From Flavobacterium lindanitolerans (lineage in GTDB: Bacteria > Bacteroidota > Bacteroidia > Flavobacteriales > Flavobacteriaceae): a stretch of 64,000 nucleotides of DNA. Below, in pieces: positions 32,305-42,858 of the stretch. Both the position numbers and the translations under genes were made by a program. Within the stretch, counting starts at the first letter, position 1; each line of letters begins with the position of its first letter. The stretch lies in assembly GCF_002846575.1 (NCBI RefSeq), contig NZ_PJND01000007.1:434001-498000 (forward strand). Reading direction: 5' to 3'. The notes under the pieces were generated by a model that did no database searches, was not told where the DNA came from, and saw only the letters and a program-made list of their open reading frames with translations.

Positions 32305-32979
32305 ATGCTTACCTTTTTTAAAAAATATAGAATTTTCTTTCTAGTCCTTTTCCTGCTATCCGCGACTATCATCACACTCTTCTATTTTGCACTAAAGCCC
32401 AAAAAGACGCTTAAGATATACAATCCTGCCGATGTCAATCCTGAAATGGTAGACACCACGGTACAGTATGTAAAAAAATACCATACTATTGATGATTTTT
32501 CGTTTACCAACCAAAACGGAAAAACAATAACCCAGAAAGATTACGAAGGAAAAATCTATGTAGCCGACTTTTTTTTTACGACCTGCCCGTCAATCTGCGT
32601 ACCAATGGGTGAAAATATGGCATGGCTTCAGGAACAGATTAAGGACAATCCTAAAGTGATGCTGCTTTCCCATACCGTAATGCCAGATATTGACACGCCG
32701 GAAGTTTTAAAAGCTTATGCCGTTAAAAAGGGAGTAATTGACAGCAAATGGAATCTGGTTACGGGCGATAAAAAAGACATTTATTATATTGCCAGAAAAT
32801 CATATCTCGCCGTAAAAACTACAGATTCAAGCGAATTATATGATATGGTACATACCGAAAACTTTGTACTTGTAGATGCAAAAAGAAGAATCCGCGGATT
32901 TTATGACGGTACCAAACTTGAAGAAGTCAAAAGACTACTGGAAGATATTAATTATTTGAGTAATGAAAAATCAGAATAA
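32305..32979 (+). CDS. SCO1/SenC family copper-binding thioredoxin-like protein
   Basis: 224 residues with one N-terminal membrane anchor (about 9-30) and a thioredoxin-like domain facing the periplasm. The copper ligands are present: C94-P-S-I-C98 in 'FTTCPSICVPMG' and H183 in 'MVHTENFVLVD'; 'LSHTVMPDIDTPEVLKAYA' is the usual central stretch. SCO proteins deliver copper to cytochrome c oxidase CuA or act as thiol reductants. No oxidase gene is near. A bidirectional terminator follows at once. Confidence 0.92.
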   Translation: MLTFFKKYRIFFLVLFLLSATIITLFYFALKPKKTLKIYNPADVNPEMVDTTVQYVKKYHTIDDFSFTNQNGKTITQKDYEGKIYVADFFFTTCPSICVPMGENMAWLQEQIKDNPKVMLLSHTVMPDIDTPEVLKAYAVKKGVIDSKWNLVTGDKKDIYYIARKSYLAVKTTDSSELYDMVHTENFVLVDAKRRIRGFYDGTKLEEVKRLLEDINYLSNEKSE

Positions 32980-33008
32980 AAAAGAGAGGCCTAATGCCTC
33001 TCTTTTTT
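32978..33008. terminator. Bidirectional terminator between the SCO and glycine-zipper genes
   Basis: Thirteen-base arms 32978-32990 and 32996-33008 (AAAAAAGAGAGGC / GCCTCTCTTTTTT), U-tract on both strands. Confidence 0.9.
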
Positions 33009-33021
33009 ATTTGTTTCGGGT

Positions 33022-33456
33022 TTATTGTTTTTCTTTCTTCTTTTTGCTATCGTCAATAATGGCTCCGGTTCCGGCACCTACGGCTGCTCCGGCCAAACCA
33101 CCAATAATAGCACCTTCACCTTTTTTCTTTGAAACGGCAGCTCCTGTAATGGCTCCGGCTCCGGCTCCAATCACAGCACCTTTTGCCGTATTGCTCCATC
33201 CTTTTTTCTTCTGCTCAGCAGTTACCGGAGCAGCTTTATTTGCTGAAGCCCGAGCAGCTTTTGCTTCGGCTGCAGCTACAACGGCATTCATGGAATCAAT
33301 AGTTCTTTGTTTGGCCAATGCTTCTTCCTGTTCTTTCATCACCACTTTCATAGAATCTATCTCACGCTGTTGCTCCAGCATTGCATTTTCACTGGCCGTG
33401 TCTTTACATGCAGAGAAAACAATCACTATAAATGCGGCATAAATTAGCTTTTTCAT
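33022..33456 (-). CDS. Glycine-zipper lipoprotein with coiled coil
   Basis: 144 residues. A lipoprotein signal (MKKLIYAAFIVIVFSAC, Cys at 17) is followed by a helical segment with repeated 'EQQREIDSMK' and 'KQRTIDSMNA' units (about 27-75), then an Ala/Gly-rich region 'GAVIGAGAGAITGAAVSKKKGEGAIIGGLAGAAVGAGTGAI' with glycine-zipper spacing, and a Lys-rich end. Such domains insert in or lie along membranes. Probably anchored to the outer membrane; role unknown. A 159-codon frame on the opposite strand is just its mirror image in codon composition. Confidence 0.82.
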   Translation of the reverse strand: MKKLIYAAFIVIVFSACKDTASENAMLEQQREIDSMKVVMKEQEEALAKQRTIDSMNAVVAAAEAKAARASANKAAPVTAEQKKKGWSNTAKGAVIGAGAGAITGAAVSKKKGEGAIIGGLAGAAVGAGTGAIIDDSKKKKEKQ

Positions 33457-33648
33457 GACTTTTATTTTTGATTATGGTATAAAAGTAAGCTTATAAAACT
33501 GAGTAATTTTATAGGATTGCACTATAATTTTATAAAACTTAAATGCGGTATTTTCTTTATAGAGAATCATCAAACATAAAAAACAATTGAAAACACTAGG
33601 ATTTAACCTCTATTTTTTATTTAAACACCTTACTTCAATAATAATTCC

Positions 33649-33656
33649 TATTTTTG
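33649..33656 (+). promoter_or_regulatory. Promoter -7 element for feoAB
   Basis: TATTTTTG matches TAnnTTTG and lies 26 bp upstream of the feoA start. The preceding 190 bp are AT-rich; I found no inverted repeat like the one at 38936-38959 here. Confidence 0.5.
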
Positions 33657-33682
33657 CAATCTAAATTGAATCTAAATAAGGC

Positions 33683-33919
33683 TTGAAAACTTTAGCACAG
33701 CTCAAAATCGGTCAGAAGGCACAGATACTCGACGTTAATATCGATACGATTCCTTTAAAATTGCTTGAAATGGGATGTCTTCCCGGCAATTTTGTAGAGC
33801 TATTGCAGATTGCACCTCTTGGCGACCCGTTATATATTGATGTCAATGACAGTCATGTTGCCATTCGCAAAGAAACTGCCCTTGCTATAACTGTTGAAGT
33901 CGTGAATGAAGCTCTATGA
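33683..33919 (+). CDS. feoA: Ferrous iron transport protein FeoA
   Basis: 78 residues forming one SH3-like FeoA domain ('QKAQILDVNIDTIPLKLLEMGCLPGNFVELLQIAPLGDPLYIDVNDSHVAIRKETA'). FeoA is a small cytosolic partner required for FeoB-driven Fe(II) uptake. The start is TTG at 33683; no ATG or GTG in frame gives a full domain. Its TGA stop overlaps the feoB ATG by 4 bp (ATGA), so the genes are translationally coupled. Confidence 0.95.
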   Translation: MKTLAQLKIGQKAQILDVNIDTIPLKLLEMGCLPGNFVELLQIAPLGDPLYIDVNDSHVAIRKETALAITVEVVNEAL

Positions 33920-36153
33920 GTCATAAAAATCTTAAAGTAGCCCTTATAGGCAATCCTAATACCGGGAAAACTTCTGTCTTTAATCAGCTTACAGGATTGA
34001 AGCAACAGGTTGGTAATTATCCGGGAATAACCGTTGAAAAGAAAATCGGTTACAGCAAGCTGGCCGAAAATCTGAAAGCCACCATTCTTGACTTGCCGGG
34101 AACCTATAGTTTAAACGCCAGTTCTATTGATGAGAATGTGGTAATTGAACTATTGCTCAACAAAAACGACCCTAATTATCCGGATGTTGCGGTTGTAGTT
34201 ACCGAAGTTGAAAATCTTAAACGAAACCTGCTTCTTTTTACACAGATTAAGGATTTGGAAATCCCGACAATCCTGGCTATCAACATGTCGGACAGAATGG
34301 ATTATAAAGGCATCAGCCTGGATATTCCTTATCTTGAAGAGCAGTTAAAAACCAAAATAGCTCTTATAAGCTCTCGCAAAAACATTGGCATTGACAATCT
34401 GAAACAGCTTATAGCCGATTATAAAACACTATCAACAGAGCCTTGCCTGAATGCATCAAGCATTGATGTTGATTATTTTAACAGGCTCCGCCATGCTTTT
34501 CCGAAAGAATTGCTTTATAAATTATGGCTCGTCATTACACAGGACGTAAACTTTGGAGAACTGGAACGGAATGAGATTGCTGAAAAATCTTTTGCAAAAT
34601 CCAATTCTGAGCTGAAAAAAATGCAGCAAAAAGAAACCATCAAAAGGTATCAGTTTATCAATGATGTTCTTAAAGTCGGATATAAGGTTGATTCATCCAA
34701 AGCAAAAGGAGTGAGAGCAAAACTGGATAGAATCCTGATGCACAAAGTTTTTGGATATGTCATCTTTTTTGCCATTCTGATGCTGATTTTCCAATCGGTA
34801 TTTTCATGGTCAAGTATTCCGATGGATTTTATCGATGAAACTTTTGCTAAACTGGCTAGCTTTTCAAAAGAACACCTTCCTCCTGGTTTACTAACCGACC
34901 TTATTTCTGAGGGAATCATACCGGGAATTGGCGGAGTAGTAATTTTTATACCACAAATTGCCTTTCTGTTTCTTTTTATTTCTGTATTGGAAGAAAGCGG
35001 TTATATGAGCCGTGTGGTTTTCCTTATGGATAAAATCATGAGAAGATTTGGACTTAGCGGAAAAAGTGTTGTTCCATTGATTTCGGGAACGGCTTGTGCT
35101 ATTCCGGCTATCATGGCATCGAGAAATATCGAAAACTGGAAAGAGCGATTGATAACCATACTGATTACTCCTTTCACAACCTGTTCAGCAAGACTGCCTG
35201 TTTATGCCATTCTGATTGCCCTGATTATTCCCGACAAAAGAATCCTTGGTTTTTTAAACCTACAGGGGTTGACTCTAATGGCATTGTATCTTTTAGGTTT
35301 TTCCATGGCTATTTTTGCCGCCTATATCCTAAACAAAATATTAAAAATAAAATCCAAGTCGTATTTCGTTATTGAGATGCCCAATTACAGACTGCCTTTG
35401 TTTAAAAATGTGGCCATTAACGTAATCGAAAAAACAAAATCTTTTGTGGTTGGAGCAGGGAAAATCATCCTTGCCATTTCAATAATCCTTTGGTTCCTGG
35501 GTTCACACGGTATGTCTCACGAATATGCTAATGCGGAAACTATTGTCAAAGAAAGAATACAAAAGCAAGGTTTAACGCGATTCAACCAAAATTACATCGA
35601 CAATACACTTTCAGAGCATTATACAGCATTGCAGGACAGCGTTGCCAAAAACATTTACAAGATTAACAGTCAGGACATCGCTGATTCTATAGCTGCCAAA
35701 AAAACAGAACTTTTTGAAAAAGTAGAAAATCAGGAAATTTCCAGTTTTAAGCTCGAAAAATCATTTATAGGAGTTTTAGGAAAAGGTATAGAACCTGTCA
35801 TCAAACCATTAGGTTATGACTGGAAAATTGGCATCGCGGTTATTACTTCCTTTGCGGCAAGAGAAGTATTTATTGGTACGCTGGCTTCTATTTACAGCGT
35901 AGACAGTGAAGAAGAAGCAACCATAAAAAGCCGAATGGAAGCTGAAATCAATCCGGTTACAGGCGATAAGATTTTCAATTTTGCTACGGGAATATCGCTG
36001 TTACTTTTTTATGCTTTTGCGATGCAGTGTATCAGTACGCTGGCAATTACGAAGAAGGAAACCAACTCCTGGAAATGGCCTGTCATTCAGCTGGTTTTTA
36101 TGAGCTCATTTGCCTATGCCGTTTCGTTAATTGTCTATCAGATTTTGAAATAA
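33916..36153 (+). CDS. feoB: Ferrous iron transporter FeoB
   Basis: 745 residues in the inner membrane, taking up Fe(II). The N-terminal GTPase domain has G1 G12-N-P-N-T-G-K-T-S20, 'VEKKIGY' with switch I, G3 'LDLPGTYSL' and G4 'NMSDRMD'; a helical GDI-like domain follows. The membrane part has the two Gate motifs with conserved cysteines ('GKSVVPLISGTACAIPAIMASR' and 'AAREVFIGTLASIYSV'), 'TPFTTCSARLPVY', and eight or so helices. Length is within the usual 700-780. It overlaps feoA and is followed after 53 bp by a tiny Cys-rich membrane protein typical of Feo operons. Confidence 0.97.
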   Translation: MSHKNLKVALIGNPNTGKTSVFNQLTGLKQQVGNYPGITVEKKIGYSKLAENLKATILDLPGTYSLNASSIDENVVIELLLNKNDPNYPDVAVVVTEVENLKRNLLLFTQIKDLEIPTILAINMSDRMDYKGISLDIPYLEEQLKTKIALISSRKNIGIDNLKQLIADYKTLSTEPCLNASSIDVDYFNRLRHAFPKELLYKLWLVITQDVNFGELERNEIAEKSFAKSNSELKKMQQKETIKRYQFINDVLKVGYKVDSSKAKGVRAKLDRILMHKVFGYVIFFAILMLIFQSVFSWSSIPMDFIDETFAKLASFSKEHLPPGLLTDLISEGIIPGIGGVVIFIPQIAFLFLFISVLEESGYMSRVVFLMDKIMRRFGLSGKSVVPLISGTACAIPAIMASRNIENWKERLITILITPFTTCSARLPVYAILIALIIPDKRILGFLNLQGLTLMALYLLGFSMAIFAAYILNKILKIKSKSYFVIEMPNYRLPLFKNVAINVIEKTKSFVVGAGKIILAISIILWFLGSHGMSHEYANAETIVKERIQKQGLTRFNQNYIDNTLSEHYTALQDSVAKNIYKINSQDIADSIAAKKTELFEKVENQEISSFKLEKSFIGVLGKGIEPVIKPLGYDWKIGIAVITSFAAREVFIGTLASIYSVDSEEEATIKSRMEAEINPVTGDKIFNFATGISLLLFYAFAMQCISTLAITKKETNSWKWPVIQLVFMSSFAYAVSLIVYQILK

Positions 36154-36194
36154 GGTTTATCATTTTCTTGGCATAAGCCGAAGAATTTAATTTT

Positions 36195-36202
36195 TAACTT
36201 TG
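36195..36202 (+). promoter_or_regulatory. Possible -7 element directly before the Feo Cys-rich protein
   Basis: TAACTTTG is a perfect TAnnTTTG box but lies only 4 bp before the ATG at 36207, which would give an almost leaderless transcript. A TTG at 36168-36170 is 24 bp upstream, longer than the usual spacer. Confidence 0.3.
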
Positions 36203-36206
36203 AGAT

Positions 36207-36332
36207 ATGAATATTCAGGAAATCATAGCATACCTACTTGTAGCAGGAGCTTTTGCTTTTCTTGTCAAGAAATTCTTTTGGAAAAAGAAAAAGGCAGGAA
36301 ATTGCGGCAATGACGATTGCGGATGCCACTAA
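36207..36332 (+). CDS. FeoB-associated Cys-rich membrane protein
   Basis: A 41-residue protein: one N-terminal hydrophobic helix (MNIQEIIAYLLVAGAFAFLV), a basic stretch KKFFWKKKKAG, then N-C-G-N-D-D-C-G-C-H at the C-terminus. This layout and its place behind feoB match the small FeoB-associated Cys-rich membrane proteins common in Bacteroidota and Firmicutes. By inference it docks on FeoB and may handle iron or sense redox state. Its stop overlaps the stop of the convergent DtxR-type gene by 4 bp. Confidence 0.9.
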   Translation: MNIQEIIAYLLVAGAFAFLVKKFFWKKKKAGNCGNDDCGCH

Positions 36333-36982
36333 AGCAGTTTGACAAAAAGATTGCTTGCAATTTTATTGGAAATCGTAAGCTCTTTTCCATTCACTTTTAT
36401 TCTCAAGGACAAATCAAAACTTTCTCTGGACAGAAACTCGATTTTTGAACCCAAAGCAATTTCCTGCTTGTCGAGGTATTTCAAAAATTCTGAAGAAGTG
36501 TCCTTTACACCAACACAAATCCCGGACTGGTTTTCTGACAATTCCGAAAGCAATTGCTTTTCGATTTTTATAATTCTTCCTTCCCTGTCCGGTATAGGGT
36601 CACCATGTGGATCTTCTGTAGGATTGTCTAAAAAATCGTCGAGCTTATTGATGAGTTTTTCTGATTTGATATGTTCTAACTGTTCGGCAATATCATGCAC
36701 CTCATCCCATGAAAAACCAAGCTTTTCTACTAGAAAAACTTCCCAAAGGCGGTGTTTTCTCACAATCATTTTTGCAGCCAGCTTTCCATCTTGTGTTAAT
36801 GAAACTCCCTGATATTTTTTATAATTAATCAGGCCTTTTTCCGCAAGCTTTTTCAACATATCCGTAACAGAAGATGCTTTCGTTTCCATTTTTTCAGCAA
36901 TGGCATTCGTACTGACTTCAGCATCTGAAGCTGTTGTTAGGTGATAGATTGTTTTTAGGTAATTCTCTTCTGAAAAAGTCAT
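36329..36982 (-). CDS. DtxR/MntR-family metal-dependent transcriptional repressor
   Basis: 217 residues. The N-terminal winged helix ('SEENYLKTIYHLT', 'VSTNAIAEKMETKASSVTDMLKKLAEKGLINYKKYQGVSLTQDGK') is followed by the metal-binding dimerisation domain with the typical 'RKHRLWEVFLVEKLGFSWDEVHDIAEQLEHIKSEKLINKLDDFL' and 'DPHGDPIPD'. A C-terminal FeoA/SH3-like domain completes the long (DtxR/IdeR-like) form. With Mn(II) or Fe(II) bound such proteins repress metal uptake genes. It lies 29 bp downstream of the Nramp gene on the same strand, so it is probably made from the same transcript and represses it. Confidence 0.93.
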   Translation of the reverse strand: MTFSEENYLKTIYHLTTASDAEVSTNAIAEKMETKASSVTDMLKKLAEKGLINYKKYQGVSLTQDGKLAAKMIVRKHRLWEVFLVEKLGFSWDEVHDIAEQLEHIKSEKLINKLDDFLDNPTEDPHGDPIPDREGRIIKIEKQLLSELSENQSGICVGVKDTSSEFLKYLDKQEIALGSKIEFLSRESFDLSLRIKVNGKELTISNKIASNLFVKLL

Positions 36983-37011: not shown

Positions 37012-38883
37012 CTACTTCTTGACAATAAATAACGGTATCGATATTTGATGGCGCAATTTATTAACCGTAGTTCCAAAAAGCAAATCCTTGAAACCGGTAT
37101 GCCCATGGGTTCCCATCACCAAAATATCAAAACTTCCAGTATTTACTATAGCCGGAATCACTTTACCTGGTTTTCCAAACCCTAATTGGATTTCAACCCT
37201 GAACCCTTTTTGAACAAGCATTTCCTTATATTCGTTCAGCAATTTTTCATCGATTGTGGTTTCATGGTCCTGTATGTTTTCGCCATACATCATGGCACCA
37301 ACAGTTTCTACTACGTGAATCAATGTATAATTTGCTTCTATTCCTCCCAATTCAAAAGCACTGTTTATGGCAACCTCATCTGCTTCCGAAAAATCAACAG
37401 AAATAGCAATATTCTTTTTCGTATACGTTGCCTTTTCTGAAAACTTAAGCGTGAGGTTGTGTGGTGAATGGTTGTAATTTTTCGCTTTTGACCTGACGAT
37501 AAACGGTTTGAAAACAATATATAAAAGCAGTACCAAAAATGCTATTGCCAAAGGAACAACTGTCAACCAAAGCACTAAAGGATTCTCTGCATTTTCAATC
37601 CATCCGGTAATTTCATCATAAACCAGTTTTGCATTGAGCGACACAATGGTTGATGCGATAATCCAGGCAGCTATTTGGGTAATCCTGCCAATATGGAAAC
37701 CTTTCATCTTTCGTTTGTCGCTTACAAAATGGATTAACGGAATAATGGCAAATCCTAATTGGAGGCTCAAAATCACCTGACTAAAAATCAGCAGTTTTCC
37801 CGTAACCTGCTCACCATAAATCATGATGACAATAACAGCAGGCACAATGGCAATCAATCGCGTAATTATTCGGCGAACCCACGGCTGTATTCTTAAGTTC
37901 AGATAACCTTCCATAACTATCTGACCGGCCAATGTTCCTGTAATTGTTGAGCTTTGTCCGGCAGCGATTAAGGCAACTGCAAAAAGTATCGGTGCCCATT
38001 TTGTTCCTAAAAGTGGTTGCAGAAACTGGTGTGCATCCTGAATCTCTGCCACATGAAACATCCCGTTGCGATAGAAGGTTGCCGCAGCCAGAATCAAAAT
38101 AGCCGCATTTACCAGAAAAGCCAGATTCAGTGCTATGGTAGAATCAATCAGATTGTATTTTAAGGCCTGTTTGATGCCCTTATCAGTCCTGTCAAACTTT
38201 CTTGTCTGCACCAGAGAAGAATGTAGGTATAAATTATGTGGCATTACAGTTGCACCAATAATACCAATGGCTATATACAATGCTGCTTCATTAGGTATGG
38301 ATGGAATCAGTCCCAATACAACCTTATCAAGTTCCGGTTCTGCAAATACCATTTCAAACACAAAAGAAAAACCTATTATAGCTACCAAGGCAATGATAAA
38401 CGCTTCCATTTTCCGGATACCTTTATTAATAAGAAACAGCAAAAGAAAAGTATCGAGAACCGTAATCAATACACCTTCAATCAAAGGAATATCAAACAAA
38501 AGGTTAATCCCGATTGCCATACCCAATACTTCTGCAAGGTCACAGGCCGCAATGGCAATCTCTGCTAAAAAATAAAGGATATAGTTAATGAAAGGCGAAT
38601 AGGTTTCCCGCGATGCCTGTGCCAGATCACGCTGTGTCACAATTCCAAGTCGGGCGCTCAAACTTTGCAAAAGCAATGCCATAATATTACTCATCAGAAG
38701 CACCCATAAAAGCGTATAGCCAAACTGGCTTCCTCCTGCTATATCAGTTGCCCAGTTCCCCGGATCCATATATCCAACGCTAATCAGATAGGCCGGTCCC
38801 AAAAAAGCCAGCACTTTTCTAAATGCCGATTTTTTATTTTGGGTAGCCACTGACCCGTGTACTTCTTCCAATGATTTACTCAT
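37012..38883 (-). CDS. mntH: Nramp (MntH-type) divalent metal transporter fused to a universal stress domain
   Basis: 623 residues from the ATG at 38883 (an in-frame TTG nine bases upstream is less likely). Residues about 25-455 form the eleven-helix Nramp transporter with the metal-binding D40-P-G-N43 of helix 1 and M214-P-H-N217 of helix 6, both typical of Mn/Fe transporters. After a short linker, residues about 485-623 form a universal stress protein domain ('KKNIAISVDFSEADEVAINSAFELGG', 'ILVMGTHGHTGFKDLLFGTTVNKL') with the nucleotide-binding G-x2-G-x(9)-G-(T)-like loop. The fusion is known in Bacteroidota; the USP domain may let nucleotide state modulate transport. A -7 box TATATTTG lies at 38902-38909. 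Confidence 0.94.
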   Translation of the reverse strand: MSKSLEEVHGSVATQNKKSAFRKVLAFLGPAYLISVGYMDPGNWATDIAGGSQFGYTLLWVLLMSNIMALLLQSLSARLGIVTQRDLAQASRETYSPFINYILYFLAEIAIAACDLAEVLGMAIGINLLFDIPLIEGVLITVLDTFLLLFLINKGIRKMEAFIIALVAIIGFSFVFEMVFAEPELDKVVLGLIPSIPNEAALYIAIGIIGATVMPHNLYLHSSLVQTRKFDRTDKGIKQALKYNLIDSTIALNLAFLVNAAILILAAATFYRNGMFHVAEIQDAHQFLQPLLGTKWAPILFAVALIAAGQSSTITGTLAGQIVMEGYLNLRIQPWVRRIITRLIAIVPAVIVIMIYGEQVTGKLLIFSQVILSLQLGFAIIPLIHFVSDKRKMKGFHIGRITQIAAWIIASTIVSLNAKLVYDEITGWIENAENPLVLWLTVVPLAIAFLVLLLYIVFKPFIVRSKAKNYNHSPHNLTLKFSEKATYTKKNIAISVDFSEADEVAINSAFELGGIEANYTLIHVVETVGAMMYGENIQDHETTIDEKLLNEYKEMLVQKGFRVEIQLGFGKPGKVIPAIVNTGSFDILVMGTHGHTGFKDLLFGTTVNKLRHQISIPLFIVKK

Positions 38884-38901
38884 ACAAAACAATTATTGAT
38901 A

Positions 38902-38909
38902 CAAATATA
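38902..38909 (-). promoter_or_regulatory. Promoter -7 element for the Nramp-regulator operon
   Basis: TATATTTG on the minus strand fits TAnnTTTG, 18 bp upstream of the ATG at 38883. The expected -33 region reads TTTTAC, a weak match. Confidence 0.6.
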
Positions 38910-38918
38910 ATTATTTTA

Positions 38919-38949
38919 TTTGCTTAGTAAAATATAATTTTTAGTTTTG
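38919..38949 (+). promoter_or_regulatory. Promoter of the TonB-dependent receptor operon
   Basis: TTTG at 38919-38922 and TAGTTTTG at 38942-38949 are separated by 19 bp: a full consensus Bacteroidota promoter. The ATG is 22 bp beyond the -7 box. Confidence 0.75.
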
Positions 38950-38959
38950 TCTAAAAATT
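38936..38959. promoter_or_regulatory. Perfect inverted repeat, candidate DtxR/MntR operator
   Basis: AATTTTTAG (38936-38944) and CTAAAAATT (38951-38959) form a perfect 9-bp inverted repeat with a 6-bp spacer, TTAG-N6-CTAA at its core, resembling the TTAG...CTAA halves of DtxR/IdeR boxes. It covers the -7 box of the receptor promoter and sits about 40-60 bp upstream of the divergent Nramp start, so one bound repressor could control both sides. Confidence 0.65.
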
Positions 38960-38971
38960 AATTATTGCTTA

Positions 38972-41233
38972 ATGAAAAACATAGCCCTACTGTTTCTAAT
39001 CTTTTCTTTTCACAACTTTTATGCACAAGAAAAAGGTGCTATTTCCGGAAAAATAACTTCCGAAGGGATTGCAGTTACCGATGCTGATATCAAAATCTTA
39101 GGAACAAATTTTGGCACATCCTCAGACAGCTTAGGTAATTATAAAATCGATAATATTCCTGCCGGAAATTATAAGATTCAGGTAGCTTATGTAGGTAGCA
39201 AAACACAGAGAAAAGCCATAACCATTAAAAAAAATGAAACCCTGGAATGGGATGCAGAATTGGAAAACGATAAAAATTCTTTGGAAGAAGTCGTTGTAAG
39301 CGGCACTTTAAAACCTGTCAGCCGTTTGGAAAGTCCCGTTCCCGTTGAAGTATACAAACCCTCTTATTTCAAGAAAAATCCAACTGCCAATATTTTTGAA
39401 GCAATGCAGAACGTGAACGGAGTCCGTCCACAACTCAACTGCAATATCTGCAACACGGGCGATATCCACATTAACGGATTGGAAGGGCCTTATACATTGG
39501 TGTTAATTGACGGAATGCCAATCGTTAGCGGACTGTCTACCGTTTACGGATTGTCCGGAATCCCAAATTCGCTGCTAGAACGGATTGAAATCGTAAAAGG
39601 CCCGGCATCTTCCTTATACGGAAGCGAGGCGGTTGGCGGCTTAATCAATATTATTACCAAAAATCCGTCCAATGCTCCACGGTTTTCAATAGACGGTTTC
39701 AGCAATTCATGGGGCGAAGTCAACCTGGATGCCGGATTCAAAGGAAACATCGGCAAAAACTCTTCCGTTTTATTAGGAGTCAATTATTTCAATTACAGTA
39801 ATCCGATAGACAACAATCATGATAATTTCACAGACGTTACACTACAGCATCGTATTTCAGTCTTTCAAAAATGGAATTTAGGAAGGAAAAGCAACAAATT
39901 GTTTTCGCTGGCCGGTCGTTATTTTTATGAAGACCGATGGGGTGGCGAAATGCAATGGGAGAAAAAATACCGTGGCGGAGACGAAGTCTATGGGGAAAGC
40001 ATTTATACTAAAAGATATGAACTATTAGGAGCCTATGAACTGCCTGTTGAAGAGAAAATGCTGTTTTCGTTTTCGTATACAGACCATGACCAGAATTCTG
40101 TATATGGAAATACGCCCTATTTGGCCCAACAACGTATTGGTTTCGGACAGCTAACCTGGGACAAGAAAATTTCCAACCATGACCTGCTTTTTGGAACAGC
40201 TATCCGCTATCAGTTTTACAACGATAATACTCCGGCTACTTCCACTGCCGACAAAACCTGGATTCAGAGCATTTTTGCACAAGATGAAATCAGGTTCAAC
40301 GATAAACACAGCATACTTCTTGGTGCACGATATGACTATAACAGTGACCACGGTTCTATTTTCACACCCCGTTTTGCTTATAAATTCAAAGCGACTGATA
40401 ACGATATTATCCGCCTGAATGCCGGAACCGGATTCCGCGTAGTAAACCTGTTCACCGAAGAACATGCCGCCTTAACCGGTTCCAGGGAAGTTGTTATTGC
40501 AGAAGAGCTAAAACCGGAAAAATCGTATAATGCCAATATCAATTACCTGAAGAAAATCTATACAGAAAACGGAACCTATATTGGCCTGGAAACGGCAGCC
40601 TGGTATACGTATTTCACAAATTCCATCCTGCCTGATTATGATACAGACCCGAATAAAATCATATACAAAAATCTGGATGGTCATGCCGTGACAACAGGAG
40701 TTAGTGCTAACTTAGACATTGTTTTCCAAAACGGGCTGAAATTTATTTTGGGAGCTACGTATATGGATGTTTCCAAAACCGAAAACGACACCAAGACAAG
40801 ACAGATTCTGACTGAAAAGTTTTCGGGAACCTGGGCTATTTCATATCGCATTCCAAAATTGTTTCTCGACATTGACTATACGGGAAATGTCTACGGTCCA
40901 ATGCGTTTGCCGTTGCTTGGAGAACTCGACCCGAGAAAAGAATACTCGCCAACGTGGAGCATACAAAACATCCAGTTCACTTACAATAAAATAAAAGATG
41001 TCGAAATTTATATGGGCATCAAGAACCTATTAAACTGGACGCCAAACAAAGGAAATCCTTTTATTATTGCAAGAGCTAACGACCCTTTTGATAAGAATGT
41101 ACAATATGACCCGCAGGGAAATGTCCTGCCAACACCAGACAATCCATATGCGTTGACTTTTGACCCAAGTTATGTTTATGGTCCGAATCAAGGCATCCGA
41201 AGCTTTTTTGGAGTGCGATATACTTTGAAATAA
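38972..41233 (+). CDS. TonB-dependent outer-membrane receptor linked to Mn/Fe uptake
   Basis: 753 residues. Signal peptide to about residue 18 (HNFYAQ); a carboxypeptidase-regulatory-like domain (about 22-105, 'GAISGKITSEG', 'GNYKIDNIPAGNYKIQVAYVG'); a plug (about 110-230) with 'SLEEVVVSGT', the Cys pair C157-N-I-C160 in 'LNCNICNTGDIHINGLEG', 'VLIDGMPIV' and 'ERIEIVKGPASSLYGSEAVGGLINIITK'; then a 22-strand beta-barrel ending 'FFGVRYTLK'. Substrate is not readable from sequence, but the operator and the divergent Nramp transporter and regulator argue for a manganese or iron chelate. The thioredoxin gene begins 2 bp after its stop. Confidence 0.92.
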   Translation: MKNIALLFLIFSFHNFYAQEKGAISGKITSEGIAVTDADIKILGTNFGTSSDSLGNYKIDNIPAGNYKIQVAYVGSKTQRKAITIKKNETLEWDAELENDKNSLEEVVVSGTLKPVSRLESPVPVEVYKPSYFKKNPTANIFEAMQNVNGVRPQLNCNICNTGDIHINGLEGPYTLVLIDGMPIVSGLSTVYGLSGIPNSLLERIEIVKGPASSLYGSEAVGGLINIITKNPSNAPRFSIDGFSNSWGEVNLDAGFKGNIGKNSSVLLGVNYFNYSNPIDNNHDNFTDVTLQHRISVFQKWNLGRKSNKLFSLAGRYFYEDRWGGEMQWEKKYRGGDEVYGESIYTKRYELLGAYELPVEEKMLFSFSYTDHDQNSVYGNTPYLAQQRIGFGQLTWDKKISNHDLLFGTAIRYQFYNDNTPATSTADKTWIQSIFAQDEIRFNDKHSILLGARYDYNSDHGSIFTPRFAYKFKATDNDIIRLNAGTGFRVVNLFTEEHAALTGSREVVIAEELKPEKSYNANINYLKKIYTENGTYIGLETAAWYTYFTNSILPDYDTDPNKIIYKNLDGHAVTTGVSANLDIVFQNGLKFILGATYMDVSKTENDTKTRQILTEKFSGTWAISYRIPKLFLDIDYTGNVYGPMRLPLLGELDPRKEYSPTWSIQNIQFTYNKIKDVEIYMGIKNLLNWTPNKGNPFIIARANDPFDKNVQYDPQGNVLPTPDNPYALTFDPSYVYGPNQGIRSFFGVRYTLK

Positions 41234-41235
41234 TT

Positions 41236-41694
41236 ATGAAAAAGTGGCTTCTTATACTAGCATTGGTAACGGCAGTTCCAACTTTTGCCCAACTCAAAAC
41301 GCACACTTTTGAAGAAGCAGAAAAATTAGCCGCTGCCACTTCCAAACCTTATGTCATTTTTATACATACGGATTGGTGCAAATTCTGCAAGATGATGGAA
41401 AACACGACTTTTAAAAACAAAGAACTTATAACAGCCCTGAACCAAAACTTTTATTTTATTTCTTTTGATGCGGAAGATAAAAAGGAAATCTTTTTTAACG
41501 GGACCGTTTTTAAATTCAAGCCAAAAGGAAATAATTCCGGCGTTCATGAATTGGCTACGGCATTGGCAGAAAAAAACGGAAACACGGCCTATCCGTCAAT
41601 TGTTATCCTAAATTCCGATTATTCTATAGCCGCACAGCTCCAATCTTACATAAATGCAAAAGACCTGCTGCAGATGCTGCGTAAAATCCGTTAA
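41236..41694 (+). CDS. Exported thioredoxin-like protein
   Basis: 152 residues. A signal peptide ends near PTFAQ (residue 19). The thioredoxin fold has the active site W47-C48-K-F-C51 in 'FIHTDWCKFCKMMENTTF' and the cis-Pro in 'TAYPSIVILN'. The pattern is of the thioredoxin_7/DsbD-gamma-like class, acting as a periplasmic thiol reductase or isomerase. It is only 2 bp behind the TonB receptor, hence co-translated with it; the receptor plug has a CxxC pair, which may be its target (inference). Confidence 0.88.
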   Translation: MKKWLLILALVTAVPTFAQLKTHTFEEAEKLAAATSKPYVIFIHTDWCKFCKMMENTTFKNKELITALNQNFYFISFDAEDKKEIFFNGTVFKFKPKGNNSGVHELATALAEKNGNTAYPSIVILNSDYSIAAQLQSYINAKDLLQMLRKIR

Positions 41695-41715: not shown

Positions 41716-42858
41716 ATGAAAAAGTACGACTACATTTTTGCCGGGGCGGGACTGTCCGCATTGATGACCGTCTACCAGATGATACTTTCCGGAAAATTCA
41801 AAGAAAAGAAAATCCTTCTTTTGGATGCCGATTCCAAAAATAACAATGACCGCACCTGGTGCTTTTGGGAAAAACCAGATGGAGATTACGAACACCTTGT
41901 CCATAGAAAATGGAATACGGCCATTTTTTCGGATGCAAATTTCACGCGTGATTTAAATCTAAGCCCTTATCAGTACAAGATGATACAGGGAATGGATTTT
42001 TACCAACATGTCTTTGAAGCAATTTCAAAAGAACACAATATTGAATTCTTACAGCAAAAGATAATTCGTTTCACAGAAGAAAATAACGGGATTTTGGCAG
42101 AAACGGAAACAGAAAAATTCTACTGCGATAAACTTTTCAATAGTATTTTAAATCCACAGGAAATTGTTGCTCAAAAAAAATATCCCTACTTGCAACAGCA
42201 CTTTATTGGATGGAAAATCAAGGCTAAAGAACCCGTTTTCAATCCGGAAAAAGCCACTTTCATGGATTTCTCAATAGCCCAAAAAGGAAATACGCGATTT
42301 ATGTATGTATTGCCTTTTTCAAAAACCGAAGCTTTGATAGAATACACTTTATTTTCGAAAGAACTGCTTCCTGAAAATGAATATGAAAACGAAATTCAGG
42401 ACTATTTCAAAAAATTAGGAATTACAAATTACGAATTGATTGAAAAAGAACAGGGCGCAATTCCAATGACTTGTTATCCTTTTTGGAAAAAAAACACTAA
42501 AAACATTGTACACATTGGAAGTGCCGGAGGCTGGACAAAAGCCAGTACCGGCTATACTTTTAAAAATGCCACAAAAAAATCAAAAGAATTGGTTGCTTTT
42601 TTGGCAACTGGAAACGATTTTAGAAAATTCCATAAAAAAACAAGGTTTTGGTTTTATGATTTGTTGTTATTAGACATATTGGATAGGAAAAACTACCTCG
42701 GAAGCCAAATATTTTCTGCCATGTTTCAAAAAGGAAATCCTGCCATTATTTTTAAATTTCTGGATGAAGAAACTTCATTCGTTGAAGACATACGCGTAAT
42801 TTCCAGATGCCCAAAAACACCTTTTCTTCAGGCATTAGGCAAAAGAATTGGCATATAA
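41716..42858 (+). CDS. crtY: Lycopene beta-cyclase family flavoprotein
   Basis: 380 residues. The N-terminal FAD-binding motif '[17 protein letters not shown]' leads into '[21 protein letters not shown]', a hallmark of CrtY-type cyclases; later '[23 protein letters not shown]', '[20 protein letters not shown]', '[11 protein letters not shown]' and '[21 protein letters not shown]' complete the family pattern. It converts lycopene to beta-carotene, needed for zeaxanthin or flexirubin-free carotenoid pigments in flavobacteria. No other carotenoid gene (crtB, crtI, crtZ) is present nearby, so it is separated from the main cluster. Confidence 0.93.

Follow-up and report, generated by a model that had tools for sequence, protein, structure and literature searches.

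A gene for a TonB-dependent receptor (TBDR) and a divergent gene for an MntH-type Nramp transporter in Flavobacterium lindanitolerans face each other across a single DtxR-type palindrome, and the same box recurs in front of both genes in related bacteria. They lie in a stretch of 64,000 nucleotides (contig NZ_PJND01000007.1, positions 434,001 to 498,000), called the window here, whose own coordinates are used throughout. It is very probable that a metal-sensing repressor acts on a box common to the receptor and mntH, and we regard manganese as the probable main ligand of the system. An earlier note, made from the letters of this DNA, had proposed an uptake system composed of the receptor, a secreted thioredoxin, an Nramp-Usp transporter, and a DtxR-type regulator, and all four genes are present.

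The earlier note had also described a perfect inverted repeat on the receptor promoter. This was borne out: the palindrome occupies 38938-38957, and a candidate -7 element, TAGTTTTG, falls inside it. The element was placed with the -7 consensus TAnnTTTG, and a TTTG at 38919-38922 could be the matching -33 element, with a spacer of 19 bp. Since the -7 element lies within the palindrome, a bound repressor would cover the receptor promoter. On the other side, the box stands at -71 from the mntH ATG. Its core, TTAG-N6-CTAA, which has the layout of DtxR boxes, occurs in the window only at 38941 and 29912. The full 20-mer, TTTTTAG-N6-CTAAAAA, has its sole zero-mismatch match in the window at 38938-38957 and two such matches in the whole genome, the second of them inside an open reading frame (ORF; L002); a refined 16-mer, TTTAGNTTNGYCTAAA, has a single zero-mismatch match in the 3.72-Mb genome, at the mntH/receptor operator. 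The palindrome was not among the terminator-like sites of the window. A wider regulon in this genome was considered and is not claimed: beside the one exact 16-mer there are ten one-mismatch matches, five in ORFs of at least 120 amino acids and five possibly intergenic. In three other Flavobacterium genomes (L121:4002, L123:4050, and L135:4000), the operator sequence recurs without mismatch ahead of a di-haem oxidoreductase-type gene (PF06537 in L121 and L123, a similar start in L135), followed in L123 by a Rieske-type gene and faced by a divergent DUF6660-type gene, both of which were scanned in L123 only.

Conservation of the box was evaluated in 61 genomes of the genus, that of F. lindanitolerans included, and in a set of named homologues consisting of the best 80 of 583 confirmed receptor homologues, the closest of which, from F. 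microcysteis, is 95% identical. A receptor orthologue is present in 41 of the 61 genomes (47 to 100% identity; next best match, 32%). The exact 16-mer TTTAGNTTTGYCTAAA lies within 260 bp upstream of 37 of these receptors, the other four (G005, G055, G033, and G018) have TTAG-N6-CTAA between -30 and -57, counted from where the receptor match begins, and the short form of the box is thus found upstream of all 41. Across the 61 genomes the 16-mer had 72 matches, versus 35 for a reversed control pattern. Among the named homologues, TTAG-N6-CTAA was present within 300 bp upstream of 77 of 80 receptors, or 76 without L196, where the box lies inside a coding region; shuffled upstream regions contained it in 114 of 8,000 cases (1.4%). 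Distant families keep the arms of the box and have an altered spacer (TTAGCCAAGGCTAA and TTAGTCAAGACTAA). As a control for paralogues, 20 TonB receptors of the same genus were inspected, and none had the box, a neighboring dtxR or thioredoxin gene, or a CxxC motif in the plug.

The claim that the Nramp transporter and the receptor answer to one metal sensor is upheld insofar as both carry the box; regulation through it is predicted. We collected 45 mntH starts with 250 bp of upstream sequence from chosen loci, a few genomes being counted twice. A box at -68 to -76 precedes 41 of them (shuffles, 84 of 9,000), and in the four without it (L119, L142, L153, and L155) dtxR is the first gene of the operon. 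The mntH box is also kept where mntH and the receptor are kilobases apart: mntH is remote from the receptor in 14 of 15 loci examined and is preceded in each of these 14 by a TTAG-N6-CTAA of its own, while mntH of the fifteenth (L152) uses a divergent box in common with the receptor. Of the dtxR starts in the named loci, 62 of 76 have a box within 300 bp, mostly at -61 to -77. A box was found before only 2 of 36 feoA genes, near -257 in both cases, and before none of the sco (0/27), lycopene cyclase (0/65), or ZIP (0/47) genes; feoA-feoB of the window has no box in front. The box therefore stands at the head of the mntH or dtxR operon and at the receptor, not at Feo, and the regulon is that of the manganese-importer side, not of ferrous-iron uptake by Feo.

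This distribution bears on a different explanation, that the locus is an iron module in which the DtxR-type protein senses Fe(II), the receptor imports a siderophore, heme, or ferric citrate complex, and the Nramp protein imports Fe(II). Consistent with such a module, a feoB match lies within 8 kb of the receptor in 39 of the 80 named loci, the general TBDR profiles that matched, although with scores far short of their cut-offs, are those for receptors of siderophores, heme, and B12, and DtxR-type boxes in other organisms are often iron boxes. The scarcity of the box before feoA argues the other way, and no hemophore or siderophore gene was found among the six locus genes scanned, a search not extended further away. 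At the metal site of the regulator the signs are mixed, one residue speaking against iron. Glu100, Glu103, and His104 occupy primary-site positions, with Asn7 at the Met10/Asp8 position. When regulators were compared with DtxR and MntR reference sequences, Glu stood at the Cys102/Glu99 position, in place of Cys102 of the iron sensor DtxR, in 84 of 84 regulators with a residue there; the equivalents of Glu105, His106, His79, Glu83, and His98 were likewise kept in 84 of 84, and the Met10/Asp8 position was Asn (60) or Asp (24). The closest solved regulators by sequence are 5zr4, SloR, and ScaR, of which the last two are manganese sensors. Together, the metal-site residues, the MntH partner, and the lack of the box at feoA favor Mn(II) as the signal, with Fe(II) also possible, and we consider an iron module unlikely.

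The earlier note had named receptors mostly without Nramp or DtxR neighbors as a finding that would tell against its proposal. Instead, 78 of the 80 named receptors have a DtxR-type gene no more than 8 kb away, in 64 cases directly upstream (within 300 bp), and mntH or a ZIP gene is present at 60; the two loci without DtxR are L145, where mntH is cut by the end of the stretch, and L148, on a short contig. The inner-membrane partner is less uniform than had been supposed. Nramp is the partner at the window's own locus and the box is common to mntH, yet across the named loci ZIP (47/80) is commoner than Nramp (16/80). In L163, L170, and L188, only 2 bp separate the end of a DtxR-type match (30 to 33% identity to that of the window) from the receptor match that follows on its strand, which suggests a regulator-receptor operon.

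The frequency of ZIP raises the question of a zinc or copper module, in which the plug CxxC and a ZIP partner would point to a soft metal and Nramp would be a local substitution. Thiols do favor zinc and copper as a matter of general chemistry, and a sco match lies nearby in 25 of the 80 loci. Against these points stand the near-constant DtxR/MntR-type neighbor, the lack of any box before sco, and the MntH-type Nramp behind the box at nearly all mntH starts described above; we regard this explanation as very unlikely.

Table 1. Features of the mntH/receptor locus and adjoining genes (window coordinates)
Feature	Position	Strand	Remarks
Operator palindrome TTTTTAG-TTTTGT-CTAAAAA	38938-38957	.	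Perfect, 7-bp arms; DtxR-type core TTAG-N6-CTAA at 38941-38954
Candidate receptor -7 promoter element TAGTTTTG	38942-38949	+	Inside palindrome; read from sequence
TonB-dependent receptor, 753 amino acids	38972-41233	+	Signal-peptide-like start, CarboxypepD_reg-like domain, plug, barrel
Plug CxxC, C157-N-I-C160 in NCNICNTGDIHINGLEG	39440-39451	+	Alignment, AlphaFold model
Thioredoxin-fold protein (Thioredoxin_2), 152 amino acids	41236-41694	+	Signal-peptide-like start; CKFC at 41377-41388
MntH-type Nramp transporter with C-terminal Usp domain	37012-38883	-	TTG alternative start at 38892 in ORF list
DtxR/MntR-type metalloregulator gene with FeoA domain	36329-36982	-	Profile matches
feoA-feoB	33683-36153		Beside dtxR gene, tail-to-tail with dtxR
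Lycopene cyclase gene	41716-42858		3' of thioredoxin gene

The layout of the locus is compact (Table 1). From the intergenic region at 38884-38971, which separates the divergent mntH and receptor genes, the order is Nramp-Usp and then the DtxR-type regulator leftward, and receptor, thioredoxin, and lycopene cyclase rightward. The thioredoxin gene starts 2 bp past the receptor stop codon, and no terminator-like site was found between the two. The range proposed by the earlier note, 38883 to 41694, covers the receptor and the thioredoxin but is too short, as the system extends to 36329. Profile scores support the gene identities. The transporter belongs to the MntH subfamily (NCBIfam NF001923, 596 bits; cut-off, 430); the receptor has plug and barrel domains (Pfam PF07715, 76.1 bits; PF00593, 90.5 bits); and the regulator has a winged helix (PF01325, 64.0 bits; cut-off, 26), a metal-binding/dimerization domain (PF02742, 109.2 bits; cut-off, 27), and a FeoA domain (PF04023, 47.8 bits; cut-off, 23). 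An Rfam scan of the window gave no matches at the gathering threshold. The segment at 32305-36330 holds sco1-, feoA-, and feoB-type genes and a small Cys-rich ORF (36208-36330) of the FeoB-associated type, tail-to-tail with dtxR. Many Flavobacterium loci are bordered on the right by a lycopene cyclase gene, whichever outer membrane gene is present.

Within the receptor, a pair of plug cysteines is conserved. All 38 receptors aligned, drawn from both subclasses, keep Cys157 and Cys160, and a plug CxxC is present in 17 of 20 distant receptors. An AlphaFold model (mean predicted local distance difference test score, 78.4; about 70 around the CxxC) has many barrel strands and places the two cysteines at a turn between predicted plug strands 151-157 and 162-167. 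None of the matched receptors in four Protein Data Bank alignments that we inspected has a plug CxxC. A search of 5.8 billion proteins gave at least 120 close relatives among the matches listed, which did not reach other phyla, and in a phylum sample of 296 genomes, 74 had receptor-profile matches at E ≤ 1e-100.

A sister class of receptors reads CQNC or CQTC at the same plug position. It occurs at 27 places in 25 of the 296 genomes, with a CxxC in all 27 (17 by pattern, 10 by alignment), and within flanks of only about 1.5 kb the box was found at 10 of 27 and a DtxR-type gene at 8 of 27. Five members (L317-L320 and L328) have a thioredoxin with a signal-peptide-like start 12 to 40 nucleotides past the receptor match, and in L336 dtxR lies 3 nucleotides past it. 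Bacteroides and Parabacteroides members had no neighbors of this kind among the genes annotated within 6 kb. Among the same-genus genomes, a receptor of this class replaces the window's type in G024, where its motif is CQNC and it stands beside dtxR and mntH, and in G059, where it stands away from dtxR; the exact box is upstream in both. In Bacteroides/Parabacteroides loci L217 and L218, a CQNC-type receptor follows a hypothetical protein of about 120 amino acids; a gene for a TrkA-type or putative transporter is nearby, but no manganese genes are in view.

Although recurrent, the thioredoxin is an accessory part. It lies downstream of the receptor, on the same strand and within 3 kb, in 29 of the 41 same-genus genomes and follows the receptor in 21 of the 80 named loci, 19 of them titled Flavobacterium; its CxxC is kept in 53 of 54 homologues. 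Because it is missing at many loci although the plug CxxC stays wherever receptors were aligned, the thioredoxin is not indispensable. The secreted thioredoxin that the earlier note singled out behind the receptor is therefore present and recurrent, but it is not a fixed part of the system, and the pairing is not unprecedented (PMC13217887). One could suppose that it has no specific link with the receptor and that an operon for metal starvation carries it as a protein of general repair under oxidative stress. That it was not found at 12 same-genus loci, while all 38 aligned receptors keep the plug cysteines, would suit that view; its reappearance directly downstream of the receptor in other families (L268, L271, L272, and L286, of 20 distant loci) and behind CQNC/CQTC-type receptors, and its absence beside the paralogous receptors, do not. 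We find such an unlinked role somewhat unlikely, while a specific relation between the thioredoxin and the plug is itself a tentative proposal, to which we give slightly less than even credence.

The outer membrane component can be exchanged. Twenty of the 61 same-genus genomes have no receptor orthologue, and in eight of them (G003, G010, G021, G034, G037, G039, G044, and G048) a PF13557-type barrel of about 250 amino acids occupies the same spot behind the same box, with one mismatch in the box of G003 and the barrel gene split in two pieces in G034. The PF13557 ("phenol MetA") assignment comes from two scanned barrels (example, L125:4089-4829). Barrel orthologues of at least 51% identity were found in those 8 genomes and in none of the 41 receptor genomes; weaker matches (29 to 38%) occur in G060, G008, G054, and G018. 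G024 and G059 carry the CQNC/CQTC receptor instead. G031 probably belongs with the receptor genomes, its locus being cut at the end of a contig; the thioredoxin stands at the start of another contig. G001, G002, and G046 have the box before mntH with no outer membrane gene in sight next to it (in G046 the contig is short and comes to an end there), and G014, G026, G028, G035, G043, and G050 gave no dtxR match, several of these genomes being incomplete. That a small barrel can replace the receptor suits a free ion better than a metal-chelate receptor, which would take up manganese or iron on a small, possibly thiol-bearing metallophore and release the metal through the thioredoxin or the plug cysteines. 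Uptake powered by TonB generally serves scarce or bulky ligands, and the thiol pair and thioredoxin are at hand; even so, we think a chelate receptor improbable.

Our preferred explanation is that receptor, thioredoxin, and MntH are made together for manganese import under a manganese-responsive repressor, and we lean toward it as a whole. The DtxR/MntR-type repressor encoded behind mntH would respond probably to Mn(II), perhaps also to Fe(II). When metal is plentiful, it would bind the single palindrome between mntH and the receptor and shut off both promoters; when metal is scarce, the receptor, the secreted thioredoxin, and the inner membrane importer would be made together. Powered by TonB, the receptor would then carry Mn(II), either as the free ion or in a weak chelate, through the outer membrane, and MntH would take it into the cell. 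The two plug cysteines may form part of a metal site or a thiol gate facing outside, and the thioredoxin may keep them reduced. A bolder version, which we rate as rather unlikely, is a phylum-wide redox-licensed gate whose plug thiols pass Mn(II) only if a dedicated thioredoxin reduces them, and which some Flavobacterium species have swapped for a PF13557 manganese porin.

Several observations weigh against the preferred explanation. Related species in our samples are not independent observations. Only 10 of 20 distant receptors have the box and only 6 have a DtxR-type neighbor (mntH, 1 of 20), so that the neighborhood is looser there. Three distant receptors (L277, L280, and L283; 27 to 31% identity) lack plug CxxC, box, and neighbors, and they probably belong to another receptor class. 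The short box is present in G055 and G033, yet neither dtxR nor mntH was found in about 18 kb around the receptor, and CQNC receptors on Bacteroides/Parabacteroides plasmid records have neither gene among those annotated within 6 kb. No thioredoxin was found at 12 of the 41 same-genus loci or at 59 of the 80 named ones, and the frequent ZIP partners leave zinc or iron possible. In the regulator, Lys replaces Glu11 of MntR, and the scores fall below the NCBIfam MntR equivalog cut-offs (NF047407, 158 versus 350; NF003025, 66.9 versus 138); judged by its profiles, it is a member of the DtxR/MntR family, not an NF047407 or NF003025 equivalog. Cysteine is an unusual ligand for Mn(II). Finally, literature searches found no expression or transport result for the window receptor.

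The route of manganese across the outer membrane is known in few bacteria. MnoT, a TonB receptor of Burkholderia, and MnoP, a channel of Bradyrhizobium, likewise serve outer membrane manganese entry, but in other phyla. In Stenotrophomonas maltophilia, the MntR regulon includes a TBDR with a CQNC plug and a periplasmic thioredoxin-fold protein (pTFP) (Argueta-Zepeda et al. 2026, PMC13217887). That article reports derepression of the TBDR locus when MntR is missing and its induction when manganese and iron are limited together. Its authors suggest that the CQNC motif may be reduced by the thioredoxin-fold protein, and they describe a restricted spread of the module, in Lysobacterales, Sphingomonadales, and Opitutales; the main text does not contain "bacteroid." Both systems have predicted boxes at the receptor promoter and mntH and adjacent mntR and mntH genes. 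They differ in the plug motif (CN[IV]C in Flavobacterium, CNIC in the window; CQNC in Stenotrophomonas), the thioredoxin motif (CKFC here, CAPC in pTFP), the box (TTAG-N6-CTAA here, a 25-bp palindrome there), and the exchangeability of the outer membrane part in Flavobacterium. Other Bacteroidota do have CQNC/CQTC receptors, some of them accompanied by DtxR, box, and thioredoxin. By its description, the Flavobacterium system looks like a Bacteroidota variant of the S. maltophilia-type module.

Within the phylum, PgMntR of Porphyromonas gingivalis binds the promoter of the manganese importer FB2 (FeoB2) and not that of the iron transporter FB1 (Zhang et al. 2016, PMC4805248). It too is an MntR/DtxR-type regulator with a FeoA domain; it differs in having Cys108 at the metal site, where our regulator has Glu, and twin FeoA domains, its importer is FB2, and the article mentions no TonB receptor. 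We considered whether the heme receptors BfpR/HfpR of F. psychrophilum might correspond to the window receptor and dropped the idea, the main text on them mentioning no DtxR, FeoB, thioredoxin, or lycopene (PMC9331221). A review of bacterial manganese biology (PMC9936198) mentions none of outer membrane, TonB, MnoP, MnoT, or Bacteroid, and we found no description of a receptor-thioredoxin-mntH module in Bacteroidota in the open-licence PMC literature.

As a concrete candidate for manganese entry in the Bacteroidota, the locus offers a cysteine pair open to testing besides its regulator, its partner importer, and a defined operator. It would also bring to another large phylum a module whose distribution was reported as restricted in 2026. 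The exchange of receptor and barrel under one box is a natural experiment on the requirements of the outer membrane step, and it suggests a possible function for the PF13557 barrel, whose family name is uninformative. If the redox-licensed gate were true, outer membrane manganese entry would be coupled to the redox state of the periplasm.

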